Source: Cyclonatronum proteinivorum (GTDB lineage: Bacteria; Bacteroidota; Rhodothermia; Balneolales; Cyclonatronaceae). From it: DNA of 64,000 nucleotides. This document shows, in pieces, positions 3,396-46,236 of this stretch (position 1 is its first letter; each line of letters starts with the position of its first letter). The position numbers were made by a program, and so were the translations under genes. The stretch covers positions 2,872,501 to 2,936,500 of the forward strand of contig NZ_CP027806.1 of assembly GCF_003353065.1 (NCBI RefSeq). The letters are read 5' to 3'. The notes under the pieces are model-generated. The model searched no databases. It worked only from the letters and a program-made list of their open reading frames with translations, and was not told the origin of the DNA.

Positions 3396-3732
3396 CAAAA
3401 TTAACATATGAGTGATGCTCTCGGAGTTCCCCCAAAAAAACGCCAGGGGTTGTGTGTGGGGATTGTATGAAGATTGTATAGGTGGTTTTGCTGCGATTGG
3501 GGTGCCTTGTGCGGGAGCGTGTTAATGGGGTTTGCGCTGTTGTTCAGGCTTGCTCAGTAGCCGGGTTATTTGTGCGGCAGGGGATGGGTTAACAGGGCTT
3601 TAACTACGCTTTTCTGCAAAAAAAAGAGGTTTTTGACACATCTGTACAACAACTTGATACATCTGTACTAACACCTGCGGTGCCGGTCAGGGTATTTTGG
3701 TAGAGGTCTCTGCGTAAAAGTGCGGGGGCTGT
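3396..3732. other. Intergenic region upstream of the giant surface protein
   Basis: About 340 bp between the IS110 region and the LamG protein gene. It contains short G-rich and T-rich stretches and the direct repeat CATCTGTAC(A/T)A (around 3640 and 3660), but no convincing promoter box or small gene. Confidence 0.5.
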
Positions 3733-6700
3733 GTGTCAAATCTGAATCCAAATCCTAAGTACCCCATGCGATACCGTGACTTATTTTTGCGTTTGTATCT
3801 GATGCTTTTTGCCGTACTTGCTTTTGCGCAGGCCGGCTACGCACAGCAGGTTATTTTTGTAAAGGCCAGTGCTACAGGCGCCAATGATGGCAGCTCCTGG
3901 CAGGATGCCTTTACGCAGCTTCAGCCCGCCATTGATGCCGCAACCGCTGCCGATCAGATCTGGGTGGCGGGGGGTACGTATTTCCCCACACAGCAGCGCA
4001 TTGCCGGGGTAAACCGGAGCCGTTCGTTTGTTATTCCTTCATCCAAAGACGGATTGCGGTTGTTTGGTGGTTTTGCCGGTACCGAAACCCAGCTCTCCCA
4101 GCGGGTAAACCCGCAGGCGCACGTGAGCAGGCTCTCCGGAGATATGAATCAGGCCGATATGCAGCAGGACATATATATCGATAGCGATCGAATTGGCAAC
4201 ACCCTGCGACCGGAAACCCTGCAGCCTATCGATCACATAAGGGTGAATCTTTCTCTGATTAGGATTGGTTTTGTAGATGTAATAGGCATAGCTGATGATT
4301 CGAATGTGTTTAGTGTGCTGGCGTTAGGCAGCGGCATTACGCGGCAAACGGTAATTGACGGGTTCACGGTTTCGGGCGGGCATACCGGTCAGCAGAATCT
4401 CGAATTATTCTTCGATCCAGTCTCCTTTCAGCCTAATCCTTTTTACACCGGGGGCGGTCTCAACTGCGACGGCTGCAGTGCAATATTGAGGAACATGCGC
4501 TTTGAGGGGAATTACGCGATGTCTCGGGGTGGAGGAGCTTCGGTCTATGCTGGCGGAAATCCGCTTTTTGTGAATACGGTTTTTTACGGGAATGTAGCTG
4601 GTGGAGCTTTGCCGGGCCCCCCTCTCGATCGGCCGCTTTTTCAGTATATATTCCAGGGACAAATATTCAGTTTCGATTCGAGTATTGTAAGCAATGATAA
4701 TGAAGGCGGAGCCTTGTATGTCGCTGAGGGCAGTTCGGCGGAAGTGGTGAGCAGTACCTTCTTCGGTAATTTGTCCTGGAATACTGGGAACCATGTTTAT
4801 GCATCAGGCACTGTACACATACGCAACAGTATTTTATGGGGGCGGGAAGGATTGAATCACCCGGAAAATATATATTCGGTTATATATGCCGGCAGCGGAA
4901 CGGTGCTGAACAGCATACTGGAAGCCAACTGCAGCGGCGGTATTGCCTGTGATCAGAACAGCCTTGCCGATCCTTTGCTTGATGCCGCCCTGCGGATTAC
5001 CGATGAATCAAGCCCTGCGGTGGGTTTTGGTAATGTTGCGGCCATACCCTCCGATATCGACGATCTGAACGGCAACGGCAATACTACGGAGCCCCTGCCC
5101 TACGATGCCGCAGGAAACCCACGGATTGTCAGCGGCACTACCGATGCCGGTGCCTTCCAAACGCCGTTTGGCGGGATCAATGCGAGCCCCGCTGCGGCTT
5201 CGCCGGGGCAGCAGGTGGAACTGAGCTTCCCCGCGGCGAACACCACAACGGGGGTTTTGATAAATGGGTTACCCGCCTTAAACCTTACTGCGCTTGCAGC
5301 CAACCGCATCCGCTTTACCATACCAGAAGGCGCCACAACCGGGCTTTTAGATATCGTTACCCCTGATCAGACCTTTTCAACAGCAGAACCCCTGGTCGTT
5401 ACGCCGGCAAGCGGAGGGCGGGCGCTGCGCGCCAATGGCAGTGGCTATGTGGAAATACCCGTCGGCAGCGACTTTGCCATCGCAAACGGGTTTAGCGTTT
5501 CTTTCTGGATACGGGCGACAAACACAAACGTTTTGGGCGGGGAAATCATCTCCAGGAGAACAACAGAGGATATTGTATCCTTACCCTCAGGCTCCTCCAT
5601 CTGGGCCCTTGAGTGGAATGATAACCTTGTAAGGCCATTTCGTTTTAGAGGAATACTTGGAGAAGAAGGAAATAGTGAAATTGTTCCGGCAGGTGAAATT
5701 ACACGAGAATCATTTTTTGGCGAACCGACAGCCTTTGCAGAATGGCAGCACATCACCTTGAATGCAACCCCGATAAATACAGCCGGGCGGATTGAGGTTA
5801 GGGTATTCGTATCGGATGTGCTTTTCTTAGATAGGCTAGATTATGATTTTTTTGACACTACAGCAGCAACCCTTCGCATTGGCAATGGTACCGGCTACGA
5901 AATAGATAATGTGATGTACTGGAACCGTGCCCTCAGCGAGGCCGAACTGTCTGATCTGCGCCGCAGGCATCTGAAGCTGAGTCCGTTTGACCCGGAAGCA
6001 GATGGCCTGATTGCCAGCTACCGTTTCGATGCCGACAGCCCGACAACGGTCTTTGACTATGCCGGAAGACGGAACGGTACCATTATCGGCGGTATCACCC
6101 GGTCGGCTTTCAGCGGCGCGGCAGTTGCCACGACCCTGTCCAACCCGGCGGGTCCGGCCGGCGCGCGCATCACCCTCAGCACCCCGGAATACAGGGCCTT
6201 CAGCGTAGGCGAACCCTATGGCGCGCTTGTACCGGGTACACAGCCCGGCGAGGGGTACGGCTTTGACGCTGTAGGCGTGCAGCACCGGCGCAGCCCGGTA
6301 AGCTGGGTAGTGCTGGCCGGCACCCCGCAGCCCACAGCGGTAACCCTCGATTATTCGGCTGTCGCTGCCCTTAGCGGAAGCGACCTGCACGTGATTCACC
6401 GGATTGAAGCCGGTAGGCCGTGGTACCCCGCGCCGGGTAACTGGGTCCATGACCCCGCGCAGCGAACCTTTAGCCGGGATAACACCGGGTTTTTGTTACC
6501 TGGGGAGTACAGCATTACCGATGTTGGGGGCGTATCGCTAACGGCTTTTGTAAGACCACACGCACAGCATGCCGGGCCCGGTGAACCGGTACAGTTTGTG
6601 GTAGGGTTAAAGAATACCGGCACCGATCCCCTCTCCGCGGCATCAGCTTTCGAGCTTAACTTTCAGGGGCTGGAAAACATATCGGTTTCGGGAGGGAGTC

Positions 6701-9700
6701 TCAGCGGTTCAACCTGGACCGTAAGCAGTGTGGATGCCGGCGCCACGCAAACCCTGCAGGTCACTGCAACGCGATCGGCTGACCCCGGGCCTGCCGGTCT
6801 GTCATACAGTGCCGTAAATCCGGTTGCCGGCATTCGAAATGCAGCGCATACCGCTCAGGTATTTGATCCCGTGTATGAAACAGGTCAGCATATTGACTTC
6901 TATGCTAGTGCAGCAGGCGGGGGTAATACGCTGGCTGACCCGGGCCTGATGGGGATCCTGGATTCGGATTTTACCGTAGAAGCCTGGGTTAAACGAAGAG
7001 TAAATTTTGTAGTAGCTAATGATCCGATCTTGTCACAGATAGGATTTGGGAGCTTGTTTTCCAATGTGCTGCGCATCGGACTGATTAACGGGCATCCCGT
7101 ATTTAGCTTTAACGGCAGTCAGCTAACGGCTAACAACCCTGTTCAGGCAGATAGCAGCTGGCACCACATCGCCTTTACCTTCAGCAAACAAACCGGTGCG
7201 CGTACTATTTTTGTGGACGGCGTGCAAACCGCATCCGATGTAAATGTTACCGGGCCGGTTGTCCTCAACACACCGATTACACTCACGATGGCGGCTAATC
7301 AGGTTGACTCTCAAGGCCGAAGGGTAAATTTGATATCTTTTCAAGATAAAATGCACAATCTTCGTATCTGGGATGTGGCGCTCACACGGGAAGAGATTCT
7401 GGAGCGCATGCACCGGCATATATCGCCCGATGACCCCCTGTCTCAGTCGCTAACAGCGGATTTCCGCATTACAGAAGGGCAGGGACCCCTGCTTTTTGAC
7501 TATGCCGGAAGCCAACGGGTAAATTTTATAGACCTCCCTGCACAGGTATGGAAAACGCGGGGCGGGGTTCTTTTCGGGCAGCAGAACGCTGTAGCTACGC
7601 AGGATACCCCGGCTGCCGTTGGCCTGCCCGGTGCTTCGCTAACCGTCTCGGGCGTTTCCGAGCGGGAGGTGCTCCTGCACCTTTCCGGCCAGCCCGACGG
7701 CCCGGACCGCACCCCCGCCGATACCGGCGAGTCGTTCGCCGAAACCTTTGCCGGCTTCGTTACCGGTCGTCCCAACGTAACCTGGAGCCTGAGCACAACA
7801 CCCGGCGATACGCTGCAGGCCGATCTCGAACTCGCCTACGGAGCGCTGAGCCTGTCGGAAGAGCCTGCCGAACGCCTGTTCGTGCTTTACAGAACCGGCC
7901 CTGATCAGGATTGGGATTTTGATGAAGGCTGGAACCATCACCCGGATACCAAAACCTTTACGCGTTCGGGAGACGTACTGGCCGGCGAGTACAGCATCAT
8001 CTCCATCCCCACGGCCCGGCTCGCGATTGAAACTGAGATACTGGAGCTGGGCGACCCTGACGAAAACGGCTTCCGTATTCGACTCACGGCCACCAATACC
8101 GGCTTGGATACACCGGCCCAGACCACGGTCGCAACGCTGGCCAGCCGCACGGGCGCGTTCCTGAACCTTCAGGCTGAAGGCAACGGCTTCGACACCGAAA
8201 CCCTGAGCTGGAACGTACCCGACCTCGGCGCCGGGCAGTCCGTGAGCGTGATACTCAGCGGCACCTTTAATGACAACATCCCGGTAGCACTGAGCTCGGA
8301 AATCACGGGTACGGAAGTCTTTAACCTGTCAACGCAGGTGCAACGCACGGCCGGACTCATCCTTGCTAAGGCTCCCTACGCGGCGGGTTCGACCGTTGCG
8401 CCCCAATTCGACCTGCTACCCGGCGTTTCCGGAACCGATTTTGGTCTGGTGAACAGCAGCTTCACGGTAGAAGCCTGGGTGCGCCCGAATACAATTTCCG
8501 GGGATCAGGCCATTCTGGGTCAGGCGATGCCCGGCAATCCCGACAACCGCACCCTGCACCTGATTCTGCGCAATGGCAGGGTTCACATGGGCTTTTTTGG
8601 GGATGACCTTCAGGGGCAAACCGACGTTCCGGCCCAGCAGTGGTCGCATGTGGCCTTCACCTACGATGTGACGACCAACAGCCGCGTTGTGTATCTGAAC
8701 GGAGTAGCCGACGGCTCGGATACGTCAGGCGGCCCGTTTCTGGGCGAAGGCACGGTGTTTATCGGCAGGTGGAATGATGGCAATTTCCTGAACGGTCAGT
8801 TTGATGAGCTGCGCATCTGGAACCGGGTGCGTAGCCCGGAGGAAATCCGCCAGAATATGCACCGCACCATTTCCCAAAGCGAGCCCGATTTCCAGGACCT
8901 GACGGCCTACTACCGCTTCGATGAAGGAGAGGGCACCATCGCCCACGACCTGCGCGGCGGTTTCCATGCCACCATCGCCGGCTCATTGGAAAACGCCTGG
9001 CAAATCAGCGCGGCTCCGGTAGGGCAGCAGGCAGTGGTGGTAACCGCCGGTACAGCAGCGCAGGTCGGCGTGGCAGGCAGCAGCCTGGGTCTGAGCGGGC
9101 TCACCGGCAGCGATGCGGGCCTGTACAGCTTTGGACTGGCAGGCAGTGATCTGCGCACCGCTGCAAATGCGGGCGGCAGCTTCAGCGCGCTCGAAGATCA
9201 GGGCATAGATGCGCGCACCTCCGTGGGATGGGGCGTGCGGGCCGGCGATGATTCCGAAGGCACGCTCACCCTGACCTTTGACGGGTTCGATGCCGAATCT
9301 CCGGTGCTGCAGTCCCCTGGCCTGCTGTACCGCCCCGCCGCAGATCAGCCCTGGGAACTGCAGTCCGACAGCCTGTGGGTCAAGAGCATCGCCCAGAATA
9401 CCTTCACCTTTACCGGCGAACTGGCTTCCGGGGAGTACGTGCTTGCGCCCTTCCCGTTCCTGAACGCGCCCTACGCCGGCACGACCCCCGGCTGGCGCAT
9501 GGTCGGCGCCCCCGGCGCGTTTGCCCGCTACGACAACGTGCTGGCCGACATCTGGACGCAGGGTTTCCCAGGCGCTTCGGCCGGCGACGACGGTGATCCC
9601 AACGTGTTTATCTATGATGAGGGCGCCCGAAGCTGGGTGCCGCCCGCGTCTGCGACCAACATTCTGGGCACAACCAGCGACACGGGCTTCCGCTCAGCCG

Positions 9701-10317
9701 GTCGAACGGCCATTGTCTATTTCTTTGAAGATCAGCTGCCCTTCAATGTGCGCTACGCCGGTCTGTTTAACGCCGAAGAAACGGAGCTCACGCTCCCGGC
9801 CACCGTACTCACCGAAGACGACGGCTTTCAGGGATGGCATCTGGTGTCCAACCCGTTTCCCTTCCCCATCGACTGGACGCGCGTAGTCGCCGACGGGCTC
9901 AACGAAGTGGCTCCGCCCATCTTTATTTACGACGCCGATACCTTTGATGGCATGGGCGGCTACCGCGTGCACTATGGCTTCAACATCCCGGGCCTGCCGG
10001 GGCAGATTCAGCATGATGGCATCATCCCGCCTTTCCAGGGCTTCTTCATCCGGACTGCGCAGATTGACGGTACGCCGGGGACGCTGACCTTCAGGCCCTC
10101 GCATCGGCCGGTCAACGGCGGCGGGGGCGGACAGCTCTTCCGTCAGGGCGACGAAGAAGAGCCGGAAGCCCCGCTGCACCTGCTGCTGTCGGTGGAAAAT
10201 GCGGACGGCTCGCAGGCGCGCAGCAGCCTGCTCAAAATTGAGCAGACCGATGAGGCGGAGCAGGCCGGGCAGGTTCTTTCCGAGCTGGGGATGCCGGCCT
10301 CGCTGGTCTGGGGATGA
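3733..10317 (+). CDS. Giant exported beta-helix/LamG protein (N-terminal 2194 aa, frameshifted)
   Basis: Exported surface or extracellular adhesin-like protein. GTG at 3733 gives the longest frame; ATG at 3766 would start directly before the signal peptide (RDLFLRLYLMLFAVLAFAQAGYAQ), so either is possible. Order of domains: right-handed beta-helix of the choice-of-anchor/polymorphic outer-membrane type (about 40-480, with GGGLNCDGC and GGNPLFVNTVFYGN turns), an IPT/TIG-like segment (about 480-555), and three LamG/concanavalin-like domains (about 558-772, 1050-1236, 1556-1722; each with a SFxVEAWVK/RP and WHHIAFT-like strand), separated by Ig-like spacers. The frame ends in ASLVWG-stop without a sorting signal; the remainder, with a type IX sorting domain, continues in another frame. 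Intact protein would be about 2470 residues. Binding target unknown; glycans are typical LamG-fold ligands. Confidence 0.85.
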   Translation: MSNLNPNPKYPMRYRDLFLRLYLMLFAVLAFAQAGYAQQVIFVKASATGANDGSSWQDAFTQLQPAIDAATAADQIWVAGGTYFPTQQRIAGVNRSRSFVIPSSKDGLRLFGGFAGTETQLSQRVNPQAHVSRLSGDMNQADMQQDIYIDSDRIGNTLRPETLQPIDHIRVNLSLIRIGFVDVIGIADDSNVFSVLALGSGITRQTVIDGFTVSGGHTGQQNLELFFDPVSFQPNPFYTGGGLNCDGCSAILRNMRFEGNYAMSRGGGASVYAGGNPLFVNTVFYGNVAGGALPGPPLDRPLFQYIFQGQIFSFDSSIVSNDNEGGALYVAEGSSAEVVSSTFFGNLSWNTGNHVYASGTVHIRNSILWGREGLNHPENIYSVIYAGSGTVLNSILEANCSGGIACDQNSLADPLLDAALRITDESSPAVGFGNVAAIPSDIDDLNGNGNTTEPLPYDAAGNPRIVSGTTDAGAFQTPFGGINASPAAASPGQQVELSFPAANTTTGVLINGLPALNLTALAANRIRFTIPEGATTGLLDIVTPDQTFSTAEPLVVTPASGGRALRANGSGYVEIPVGSDFAIANGFSVSFWIRATNTNVLGGEIISRRTTEDIVSLPSGSSIWALEWNDNLVRPFRFRGILGEEGNSEIVPAGEITRESFFGEPTAFAEWQHITLNATPINTAGRIEVRVFVSDVLFLDRLDYDFFDTTAATLRIGNGTGYEIDNVMYWNRALSEAELSDLRRRHLKLSPFDPEADGLIASYRFDADSPTTVFDYAGRRNGTIIGGITRSAFSGAAVATTLSNPAGPAGARITLSTPEYRAFSVGEPYGALVPGTQPGEGYGFDAVGVQHRRSPVSWVVLAGTPQPTAVTLDYSAVAALSGSDLHVIHRIEAGRPWYPAPGNWVHDPAQRTFSRDNTGFLLPGEYSITDVGGVSLTAFVRPHAQHAGPGEPVQFVVGLKNTGTDPLSAASAFELNFQGLENISVSGGSLSGSTWTVSSVDAGATQTLQVTATRSADPGPAGLSYSAVNPVAGIRNAAHTAQVFDPVYETGQHIDFYASAAGGGNTLADPGLMGILDSDFTVEAWVKRRVNFVVANDPILSQIGFGSLFSNVLRIGLINGHPVFSFNGSQLTANNPVQADSSWHHIAFTFSKQTGARTIFVDGVQTASDVNVTGPVVLNTPITLTMAANQVDSQGRRVNLISFQDKMHNLRIWDVALTREEILERMHRHISPDDPLSQSLTADFRITEGQGPLLFDYAGSQRVNFIDLPAQVWKTRGGVLFGQQNAVATQDTPAAVGLPGASLTVSGVSEREVLLHLSGQPDGPDRTPADTGESFAETFAGFVTGRPNVTWSLSTTPGDTLQADLELAYGALSLSEEPAERLFVLYRTGPDQDWDFDEGWNHHPDTKTFTRSGDVLAGEYSIISIPTARLAIETEILELGDPDENGFRIRLTATNTGLDTPAQTTVATLASRTGAFLNLQAEGNGFDTETLSWNVPDLGAGQSVSVILSGTFNDNIPVALSSEITGTEVFNLSTQVQRTAGLILAKAPYAAGSTVAPQFDLLPGVSGTDFGLVNSSFTVEAWVRPNTISGDQAILGQAMPGNPDNRTLHLILRNGRVHMGFFGDDLQGQTDVPAQQWSHVAFTYDVTTNSRVVYLNGVADGSDTSGGPFLGEGTVFIGRWNDGNFLNGQFDELRIWNRVRSPEEIRQNMHRTISQSEPDFQDLTAYYRFDEGEGTIAHDLRGGFHATIAGSLENAWQISAAPVGQQAVVVTAGTAAQVGVAGSSLGLSGLTGSDAGLYSFGLAGSDLRTAANAGGSFSALEDQGIDARTSVGWGVRAGDDSEGTLTLTFDGFDAESPVLQSPGLLYRPAADQPWELQSDSLWVKSIAQNTFTFTGELASGEYVLAPFPFLNAPYAGTTPGWRMVGAPGAFARYDNVLADIWTQGFPGASAGDDGDPNVFIYDEGARSWVPPASATNILGTTSDTGFRSAGRTAIVYFFEDQLPFNVRYAGLFNAEETELTLPATVLTEDDGFQGWHLVSNPFPFPIDWTRVVADGLNEVAPPIFIYDADTFDGMGGYRVHYGFNIPGLPGQIQHDGIIPPFQGFFIRTAQIDGTPGTLTFRPSHRPVNGGGGGQLFRQGDEEEPEAPLHLLLSVENADGSQARSSLLKIEQTDEAEQAGQVLSELGMPASLVWG

Positions 10318-11140
10318 GCTCCTGTTCGGACTTCGGGGCGGCCATGGTCAGTTTGGGCCGCTGAGCATGAAGCATCAGCGGATGCAGGCGGGCAACACCT
10401 ACAGCTTTCCGCTGTTGTTCGACGCACAGCGCGCGGGCAGCTACACCCTGCGCATCCCGACCCTGGAAAACTGGCAGCATGGGCAGGTTCGCCTGACCGA
10501 TCACCACACAGGCGAGACGGTGGTAATGGAGGCAGGCAGCACCTATGTGTTCGGGCACAGCCCGTCGCAGGGGCGTCCTGCCGCTGAAGAAGGCCGCCGC
10601 ATGCAAGCCGCGTCGGGCAGCTTTGAAGCGACCCGCGCGGTGACGGAGCGAATGGCTTCGGTGTCGGCCTCCTCAGTAAATCCGCGAGCACTGCCGGCGC
10701 CGGTGGGCTTCCGGAACAGCGGGCCTGCCCAATTGGATATAACAGCGCCAACTGGCGGAAATGCCGGTTTAGCTGCGATGCAGCCCGCGAATGAGGGGCG
10801 TCCCGCGGGTATGGCGCCGCGTTTCACGCTGCAGCTGCTGTTCAGCGAACCCGAGCAGATTCAGCCGGAGCTGCCCGCGCAGCTGGCCCTGGACCAGAAC
10901 TACCCGAACCCCTTCAACCCGACCACAACCATACAGTACGCGCTGCCCGAATCGGGGCACATCCGCCTCGACGTGTTCAACGTGCTGGGTCAGCGGGTAG
11001 CGACGCTGATCAACGGGGAGCAGACAGCGGGCTTCCACAGCCTGCAGTTCGACGGCTCGCGCCTGTCGAGCGGCGTGTACCTGTACCGCCTGCAAACCAG
11101 CAATCAGGTGATCACCCGCAAGATGCTGCTGCTCAAATAA
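10310..11140 (+). pseudogene. C-terminal part of the giant protein with T9SS sorting domain (shifted frame)
   Basis: Continues the preceding gene in the +1 frame: GDELLFGLRGGHGQFGPL follows immediately where the upstream frame stops. It ends with a classic Por-secretion type A sorting domain, with LDQNYPNPFNPTTTIQYALP followed by FNVLGQRVATL, SSGVYLYRLQ and RKMLLLK. This signal normally directs type IX export and surface anchoring in this phylum. There is no plausible independent start or signal peptide, so it is a fragment of the upstream gene rather than a gene. The switch lies at the run GGGG (10310-10313); one base too many there explains it. Could be a real inactivating or phase-variable shift, a programmed frameshift, or a sequencing error. 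Confidence 0.8.
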
Positions 11141-11192
11141 AAGCAGCGCCCTCCGGGACAGGAAGCGAAGCCCTGCAGGTGAATCAGCACAT

Positions 11193-11230
11193 AGCATTGC
11201 AGCGAACAGCCTACGCCCCGCTGCAATGCT
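11193..11230. terminator. Inverted repeat after the giant protein
   Basis: Perfect 12-bp arms AGCATTGCAGCG (11193-11204) and CGCTGCAATGCT (11219-11230), 14-base loop, 53 bp downstream of the stop. There is no T run on either side, so intrinsic termination is uncertain; it may protect the 3' end of the mRNA. Confidence 0.45.
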
Positions 11231-11283
11231 TTGCAATCCATCACGGCTACCAACTGATAAATCAGACTGAACTGCTGATCTCG

Positions 11284-11329
11284 GTCTTCTGTCTTCTGAC
11301 TTCTGTCCTCTGCCCTCTGTCCTCCGTCC
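11284..11329. repeat. 7-bp-period tract, copy 1
   Basis: Reads as successive heptamers TCTTCTG, TCTTCTG, ACTTCTG, TCCTCTG, CCCTCTG, TCCTCCG. Two similar degenerate 7-bp-period tracts lie at 14034-14098 and 17318-17396. It resembles the heptanucleotide short tandem repeats described in filamentous cyanobacteria, though the unit differs. Confidence 0.75.
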
Positions 11330-11360
11330 ACAAACTTTTCCCCCCAAAATTTCTGATCTC

Positions 11361-11624
11361 ATGAAAAATCGCATCAAACACTTCTTTGTCACTCTCTTTT
11401 TTATCGCAGCGCTTGTGCTGTTCATCGACATCAATCCCGCTGAAGCGCAGTACCGCGACGAACCGGACTGGGGCCGGCAGGGTACGGCGCAGCCTGCGGG
11501 CAATCCTTCCGGTCCGCCTCTGCCGCCGGGTGCACCGCAGCAAACCCCGATCGGCGGTGGTCTCGCCCTGCTGCTCGCCGCGGGCGGTGCCTACGCGATT
11601 AAGAAACTCAAGCATAAACCTTGA
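11361..11624 (+). CDS. PID-CTERM-like small sorted protein
   Basis: An 87-residue protein with an N-terminal signal peptide (MKNRIKHFFVTLFFIAALVLFI...AEAQ), a short Pro/Gly/Gln-rich linker, and a C-terminal PIGGGLALLLAAGGAYAIKKL segment. That tail matches the PID-CTERM pattern known in Bacteroidota and relatives: a P-I-D/G-G-G motif, a short Ala/Leu/Gly membrane helix and a Lys-rich end. Here the Asp is Gly. The tail is expected to be recognised and processed by a sorting system on the periplasmic side; the sortase-like enzyme is not in this window. The mature linker is only about 35 residues, so the function of the protein itself is unknown. Confidence 0.75.
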   Translation: MKNRIKHFFVTLFFIAALVLFIDINPAEAQYRDEPDWGRQGTAQPAGNPSGPPLPPGAPQQTPIGGGLALLLAAGGAYAIKKLKHKP

Positions 11625-20398: not shown

Positions 20399-20770
20399 AC
20401 GCATATTTTTTGTTCAGTCAGCGCTTTAGGAGAGTTGATAAGCGCCTTGATAATAACGACTTTGAGGCTCGTGTTACGTCATTATATTTTTTGGCTGGAA
20501 ATGCTGAAACGCCACGTAGCCATAATTCCCCTCTGCGAGAGGGATGCCCGGGTTGTAGGGGCGGACCTGTGTGTCCGCCCCTACAACCCGGACCCCGGAC
20601 CCTCGCTCTCGAAACCCAAGTCGAAGCCGTCTACCAGCTTCCCAGGCATGAATATCGCGCCATCCCGAACGGCAGGAACCCAACGCGAATCAACCAACTG
20701 CGCTTCAACGATTACACGGGCAGGTGTGTTCTTTGGGCTCTAAATAACACTCCAACAAATCCAAGGAACA
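20399..20770. repeat. Repeat-bearing gap after alr, with 19-bp-arm palindrome
   Basis: Perfect arms run from 20548 to 20566 and from 20573 to 20591 (core GGGGCGGAC / GTCCGCCCC) around the loop CTGTGT. Just upstream, GAAACGCCACGTAGCC and CCTCTGCGAGAGGG match the repeats at 22788, 22905 and 23537. No T run follows, so it is more likely a dispersed palindromic repeat than the alr terminator. Confidence 0.75.
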
Positions 20771-22831: not shown

Positions 22832-23140
22832 GGAATTAATAAGTGCCGTCTTATTAATATTTTAGAGCTCGTATCTACATTGTTGTTTTGGTATGGTAAT
22901 CCTGAAACGCCACGGAGCCAAACTCCCCTCTGCGAGAGGGGTGCCCCCTGGAAAAACAAAATCAGCGGCAAGAGCCCGAAAAAAGCATCAAATGTTAAAA
23001 AGGCTCCGATTTTGAAGGGGCGGGGTGTGAACGCCCGGATGCCGGAGATCGAGCACCTTACGCCACGAAAATAATACCGGACACTTGTAGCGAGAGTAAT
23101 AAATAATTCCAACAACCCGCCGCTCCAGCCCTGAAAGGGC
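22832..23140. repeat. About 305-bp direct duplication, copy 1
   Basis: Homologous along its length to 23465-23772: both contain GGTAATCCTGAAACGCCACGG, CTCTGCGAGAGGGGTGCCCC, CGGCTCCGATTTTGA..GGGGCGGGGTGTGA, and AATAAATAATTCCAACAACC, and both end in the CCCTGAAAGGGCG element. Copies differ by scattered substitutions and small indels. Non-coding. Confidence 0.85.
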
Positions 23141-23215
23141 GACATACCATAGCCCGGGGTGACAACCCCGGGATCACGACCCATCAATAATGGAGCCCTG
23201 AAGGGGCGGCATATC
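23127..23215. repeat. CCCTGAAAGGGCG dispersed repeat, copy 2
   Basis: Same two direct 22-bp repeats and internal GGGGTGACAACCCC hairpin as at 1699-1788. Confidence 0.8.
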
Positions 23216-45324: not shown

Positions 45325-46236
45325 AGAAACGGTTCATCTCGAACCCCGGGACATGGCAACGCAGCACTCAAAACCCCAACAATGCGGCCTGCACCAGCAC
45401 CCCATCGAAGCATCATGTGAGAGATCTCCTGCAGCTGTTTTGCTCTGATATGCATCAACGATTCGTAGCCCCCTGCACCACCAGATCCTTCGACTCCGCT
45501 GCGCTCCGCTCAGGATGACAGGGGCCGCCTCGCATCAAACGGCGCGGCATGCCGCGCCTGGGGTGCTGGTGGGCGGCGCTTTCGTGCTACAAAGCTGTCG
45601 CTCCTACCGGAGCTGGTTCGAAATAATAAATGAAAAAACGTGTCATCTCGAACAATGGGGCATGGCAATGCCGCAAACAAAGCCCAAGCTATCCGACCTG
45701 CACCGGCAGTCCCTCAAAGCATCATGTGAGAGATCTCCTGCAGCTGTTCGGCTCTGATATGCATCAACGATTCGTAGCCCAGCACTACGAGATCCTTCGA
45801 CTCCGCTACGCTCCGCTCAGGATGACAGGCGCCCTTGCCTCAAACGGCACGGCAGGCCGCGCCGGGGGTGGTGGAGAGACAGGTGCTATCAGGCTTCAAA
45901 GCTGTCGCTCCTACCGGAGCTGGTTCGAAATCAGAAACAAAAAACGTGTCATCTCGAACCCCGGGACATGGCAAAGCTGTAATCAAAGCCCCAAAAATCC
46001 CACCTGCCTCGGCAGACCATCGAAGCATCATGTGAGAGTTCTCCTGCGGTTAGTGGGCCCCGATAGAGATCAACGCTACCGTGCCCTGCACCACCAGATC
46101 CTTCGACTCCGCTGCGCTCCGCTCAGGATGACAGGCGACGCCTCGCGCCAAACGGCGCGGCAAGCCGCGCCTGGGGTTTTGAGAATTGCCCCTGTCATCC
46201 TGAGCGGAGCCGAAGCGCAGCGGAGGCGGAGTCGAA
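45325..46236 (+). repeat. Composite dispersed repeat, three tandem units
   Basis: Module A starts at about 45330 (CATCTCGAACCCCGGGACATGG), 45648 (CATCTCGAACAATGGGGC) and 45948 (CATCTCGAACCCCGGGACATGG), so units are about 320 and 300 bp apart. Each unit has module A, B (GAGATCCTTCGACTCCGC with CGCTCAGGATGACAG), C (GGCGCGGC palindrome, mutated in the second unit to GGCACGGC) and the linker AAGCTGTCGCTCCTACCGGAG; only the last unit has the B' arm. No gene is supported in this 1.3-kb gap. Confidence 0.85.

Follow-up and report, generated by a model that had tools for sequence, protein, structure and literature searches.

The gene and its break

The window, i.e. the whole stretch of 64,000 nucleotides analysed here from the genome of the soda-lake bacterium Cyclonatronum proteinivorum, contains a gene for a giant LamG protein whose coding sequence is split over two frames. 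Its parts are as follows.

3733 to 10317, plus strand: LamG frame, 2,194 aa, N-terminal part of the giant protein, stop TGA
8443 to 8847, plus strand: best-scoring Laminin_G_3 stretch (one of three), residues 1571-1705
10310 to 10313, plus strand: GGGG run with one surplus G compared with GGG in the ortholog
10313 to 11140, plus strand: the same protein continued in the next frame (remainder of the interrupted region, linker and sorting domain)
10315 to 10317, plus strand: premature TGA stop of the LamG frame
10901 to 11128, plus strand: T9SS type A sorting domain (profile match, TIGR04183 / PF18962)

According to the ORF analysis frame 1 is without a stop from 3718 to 10317. The start of the LamG frame is signal-peptide-like, with the likely M at 3766 (judged by eye), and the frame comprises three Laminin_G_3 stretches and one DUF11 domain. 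Its 3' end reads TGG GGA TGA and the protein ends with GMPASLVWG. Re-reading of the frames bore out coordinates and description of this end as given in the original prediction, i.e. ASLVWG followed by a stop. The sorting-domain frame, offset by one base, is open from 10088 to 11140. From 10313 on it reads DELLFGLRGG and continues up to a Por_Secre_tail domain at its end. The TIGR04183 match of this post-break frame (4.2e-13, 49.1 bits) is above the curated cut-off of 23. The N-terminal signal peptide and the sorting domain are not in one frame; the stop at 10315-10317 is between them, and the break is located between a W codon (10309-10311) and a D codon (10313-10315). Pfam and PDB sequence searches across the break named no domain. 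A structure prediction for the C-terminal 591 aa of the intact ortholog, based on a three-row alignment, had a mean pLDDT of 36 and was discarded.

The window also contains tandem repeats at 142-1573 (343 bp x 4.2) and at 45327-46177 (306 bp x 2.8), the latter adjoining tRNA-Val. Two matches to the Acido-Lenti-1 RNA (RF01687) scored above the gathering score (1699-1744 and 23127-23172, both on the minus strand). A dispersed element of some 126 bp occurs at 20428-20553 and at L030, and numerous copies lie immediately upstream of the window.

Comparison with intact relatives

The best match outside the own genome was from the same genus (G005), with 77% identity to a 315-aa query. This ortholog (G005:C120, loci L010, L031 and L032, the last from a MAG called Balneolales bacterium) is a single open frame of 2,025 aa, sorting domain included. 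At the site it reads GTG TGG GAT CAG, i.e. W and D are adjacent and three Gs are present. Aligned to the ortholog, the fragments from the window (identity 76% and 73%) meet exactly between its columns 318 and 319, neither leaving a gap nor overlapping. Therefore, the window has one surplus G, as had been proposed for the GGGG run at 10310-10313. Likewise, the proposal that the next frame continues without a gap as GDELLFGLRGG was correct as far as continuity is concerned, because the fragments abut at W and D; however, the G ahead of D does not belong to the continuous protein, which reads VW-DELLFG.

We then traced the frame in 22 related loci (ranks 3-24 of the homology matches, two of them other paralogs of the own genome). 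Upstream region and sorting-domain motif were in one frame in 18, and the remaining four ran off the contig or locus end ahead of the sorting domain. Thus, a broken frame was observed in 0 of 22 (18 traceable, 4 running off).

The nonsynonymous/synonymous ratio (omega) against G005 was 0.146 ahead of the break (312 codons), 0.235 behind it (275 codons) and 0.041 over the last 85 codons, which encode the sorting domain. Judged by these ratios, the sorting-domain codons were under strong constraint until lately. Among the ORFs of the window, the post-break frame has accumulated no further stops. Taken together, past constraint and the lack of further stops argue that the break is recent.

A second copy with the same break

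The original prediction considered the window only. A new finding is a second copy of the gene with an identical break in the own genome (G000:C1, about 2631083-2637983, minus strand), about 250 kb away and on the opposite strand; a single contig of 4,294,247 bases carries both. In the break region the second copy is 99% identical and has the same GGGG run and the same stop. The own genome yielded nine matches; only the window gene and the copy at 2.63 Mb exceeded 42% identity, and an intact close copy was not found among the nine. The region common to both copies has the following layout.

7692 to 11560, plus strand (minus strand in the copy at 2.63 Mb): 3,869-bp tract common to both copies, 10 differences only
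9513 to 9804, plus strand: sole difference-bearing stretch of the shared tract, with all 10 differences

The exact-match runs in the tract are 1821, 179 and 1756 bp long. Third codon positions hold 8 of the 10 differences, and after the break the copies do not differ at all, so that this pair itself offers no direct sign of lost constraint there. Outside of the tract identity is about 60% in the 5' halves, and 3' of the tract there is no sustained similarity; it stops abruptly about 420 bp beyond the end of the sorting-domain frame. Between 7692 and 11560 diverged paralogs are thus nearly identical with abrupt ends, the pattern by which gene conversion is recognized. These sequence features are those expected of a tract that was converted recently; the alternative is a single consensus written twice in the assembly. 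If the tract was converted, the frameshift common to both copies goes back to a single event. The same break in two copies does not represent two independent hits.

Just past the sorting-domain stop the shared tract contains a microsatellite (11280-11329) with about seven copies of the 7-bp unit CTCTGTC.

A short repeat at the G-run

The GGGG run lies in the second copy of a 9-bp direct repeat.

10285 to 10293, plus strand: CTGGGGATG, first copy
10308 to 10316, plus strand: CTGGGGATG, second copy, spanning the break

The repeat CTGGGGATG may have been the template of the extra G, which we regard as no more than a hint. A covering word of at least 9 bases recurred within 100 bases in 4 of 142 G4 runs, and two of those are the CTGGGGATG pair. 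At another interrupted gene with a G-run, L060 (see below), the shared exact word was only five bases long.

Other interrupted sorting-domain genes

The own genome has 91 TIGR04183 matches. We examined the start of each of these open frames by a hydropathy score, weak ones also by eye. A hydrophobic signal-like start was present in 79; two were undecided (L097, L115) and one, L053, was an orphan. Nine loci look interrupted, the window gene and its copy plus seven others with differing lesions. For the window pair and L060 the break was checked against an intact homolog, for the other interrupted loci by frame continuity. L060 (G000:C1:2444334-2447600, minus strand) carries a single additional base close to a GGGGG run, as confirmed by the intact paralog L007. 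L057 and L058 (G000:C1:3762500-3766300 and 3779500-3783400) are subtilase/beta-helix-like cargo genes 17 kb apart, with a common frame change within a 95.5%-identical stretch. Their post-break parts show 12 nonsynonymous against 5 synonymous differences, near the expectation for no constraint, albeit with small numbers. In L137 (2425712) the frame changes, probably at a T7 run. In-frame stops were found in L083 (1977194, TGA), L095 (4006756, TAA) and L123 (3775659, TAA). Interruption is not special to the window gene among the sorting-domain loci.

As a control we used 40 of the 97 matches in G060, a genome of the same order: 38 had a signal-like start, one looked interrupted (L142) and one was undecided (L143). 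The excess of interrupted cargo genes over this control (9/91 vs 1/40, or 2/40 with the undecided one counted; Fisher p 0.28 or 0.50) is suggestive, yet not significant.

The orphan sorting domain L053 (G000:C1:720640-720990) is an open frame of 116 aa without an upstream gene body and is located downstream of an intact cargo gene.

Explanations of the break

The genome encodes T9SS machinery, i.e. PorU (955 bits, cut-off 420) and SprA (1541.6 bits, cut-off 200). This agrees with the original prediction that the extra base parts the LamG protein from its T9SS signal. We consider it likely that a recent one-base loss-of-function indel (GGG to GGGG), common to two gene copies, disables a T9SS cargo gene. 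Gene conversion between the paralogs would recently have homogenised the tract and moved the frameshift from one copy to the other. The protein made would end after about 2,180 aa and enter the periplasm via Sec, lacking the C-terminal signal for T9SS export and surface anchoring. Because this signal would never be translated in frame, the truncated protein is predicted to stay in the periplasm or to be degraded. The sorting-domain piece, devoid of a signal peptide, would not be exported.

An error in the data is the most serious competitor, even though we rate it as improbable. The sequencing of strain Omega, the likely source of this genome, combined MiSeq 2x250 reads with mate pairs whose inserts averaged 2,233 bp; assembly was by ALLPATHS-LG and SPAdes with manual refinement at 95.7x coverage (reads in PRJNA392178; PMC6243061). 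At such Illumina coverage a miscalled G4 run is unlikely, and the worry about a plain sequencing error, raised with the original prediction, is weakened. It persists in another form, because the 3.87-kb duplicate exceeds the mean mate-pair insert in length: the copies may have collapsed in the short-read graph so that one consensus was written into both, the G4 run being real in only one copy or in neither. The break is situated within exact runs of 1.8 kb in which single reads cannot tell the copies apart, and the sequence given for both may derive from one of them. However, either of the long exact runs, at 1821 and 1756 bp, falls short of the insert length and the island of 10 SNPs between them was preserved, i.e. 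the copies were bridgeable. Moreover, at least one copy would truly carry the lesion unless the consensus is a hybrid.

According to the original prediction, a frameshift that is real and variable would turn export and anchoring of the LamG protein on and off. In such reversible phase variation, surface display would be toggled by slippage at the G-run or by recombination with an intact partner. The frame break directly ahead of the anchoring signal of a surface protein, the presence of two recombining copies and a relative which differs by exactly one G are all compatible with it. However, G4 is short and ordinary, one of 144 exact G4 runs on the plus strand of the window, and the G3 of the relative means that a long tract is not conserved. 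An intact close copy is absent among the nine own-genome matches, and the other interrupted cargo genes carry unrelated lesions including in-frame stops. In poly-G phase-variable surface genes of Neisseria, as here, the length of a G-run sets the frame; there, a survey used a cut-off of at least nine Gs, with reference to a G7 tract that switches as well (PMC5953494), whereas here four Gs face three in the relative. Given the G3 relative, the 0 of 22 broken loci, the commonness of G4 and the Neisseria cut-off, we rejected phase variation at GGGG as the lead reading and give it very little credence. Equally far-fetched appears a variant in which conversion between the inverted copies about 250 kb apart spreads or removes the break, so that display of both proteins would be governed jointly and could be re-established by an intact donor elsewhere in the population. 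In one open-access library we found no published description of T9SS, frameshift and phase variation together, nor of this case. The genome paper of strain Omega mentions a Por secretion domain for one protein; in the sections available to us we found no mention of T9SS cargo or pseudogenes (PMC6243061).

The interrupted frame might also be read through. Programmed frameshifting at UGG GGA UGA would yield a fraction of full-length protein, either by a -2 shift in which the Gly tRNA moves from GGA to GGG, giving W-G-D, or by a +1 shift, giving W-D. Both frames are still open and constrained, -2 pairing of the Gly tRNA on GGGG appears possible, and -2 frameshifting is known from phage Mu (PMC5009743). 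Against this, neither the ortholog nor any of the 18 traceable relatives requires a shift. Programmed sites would be conserved in homologs that depend on the shift and be accompanied by a stimulatory RNA structure; here, 0 of 22 related loci depend on one and a stable downstream structure is missing (z-scores -0.76, 0.06 and -0.31). A Shine-Dalgarno-like stimulator spaced as in prfB was not seen by eye. Further, in L057/L058, the pair with a shared break elsewhere in the genome, the downstream part looks unconstrained. Programmed frameshifting would therefore come as a considerable surprise. Re-initiation was rejected as well: the stop-start overlap ATGA (10314-10317) leads into a third frame rather than the one that encodes the sorting domain.

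Discussion

We return to the recent indel shared by two copies as the favored explanation. The combined data suggest that both copies together represent a young pseudogene pair or a loss-of-function allele, in a genome where several further T9SS cargo genes look interrupted as well. The gene resembles T9SS type A cargo in its signal-peptide-like start, the long repetitive LamG ectodomain and the terminal sorting domain, in a genome that has PorU and SprA. What sets it apart is a sorting domain that in either copy lies outside the frame of the rest. With frameshift pseudogenes of surface-protein families it has in common the single indel in a long gene, readable sequence on both sides and intact relatives; in contrast to these, the lesion is common to two loci via a near-identical 3.87-kb tract. 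Recombination between homologous surface-protein genes is familiar from Porphyromonas gingivalis, where allelic exchange and gene conversion affect surface proteins, several of which are T9SS cargo (PMC5266723). There, antigenic diversification was proposed, whereas here recombination would have made the copies alike and given them a common broken frame.

The mechanism itself is ordinary, and the shared tract is more notable than the frameshift. Through such a tract a single indel can turn up in two surface-protein genes at once. This is also a warning: an identical frameshift at two loci does not amount to two independent observations. For the strain we predict that display of two giant LamG proteins fails, perhaps along with that of several other T9SS cargo proteins. 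Such non-display would bear on how the secretome of the strain is inferred from its genome.
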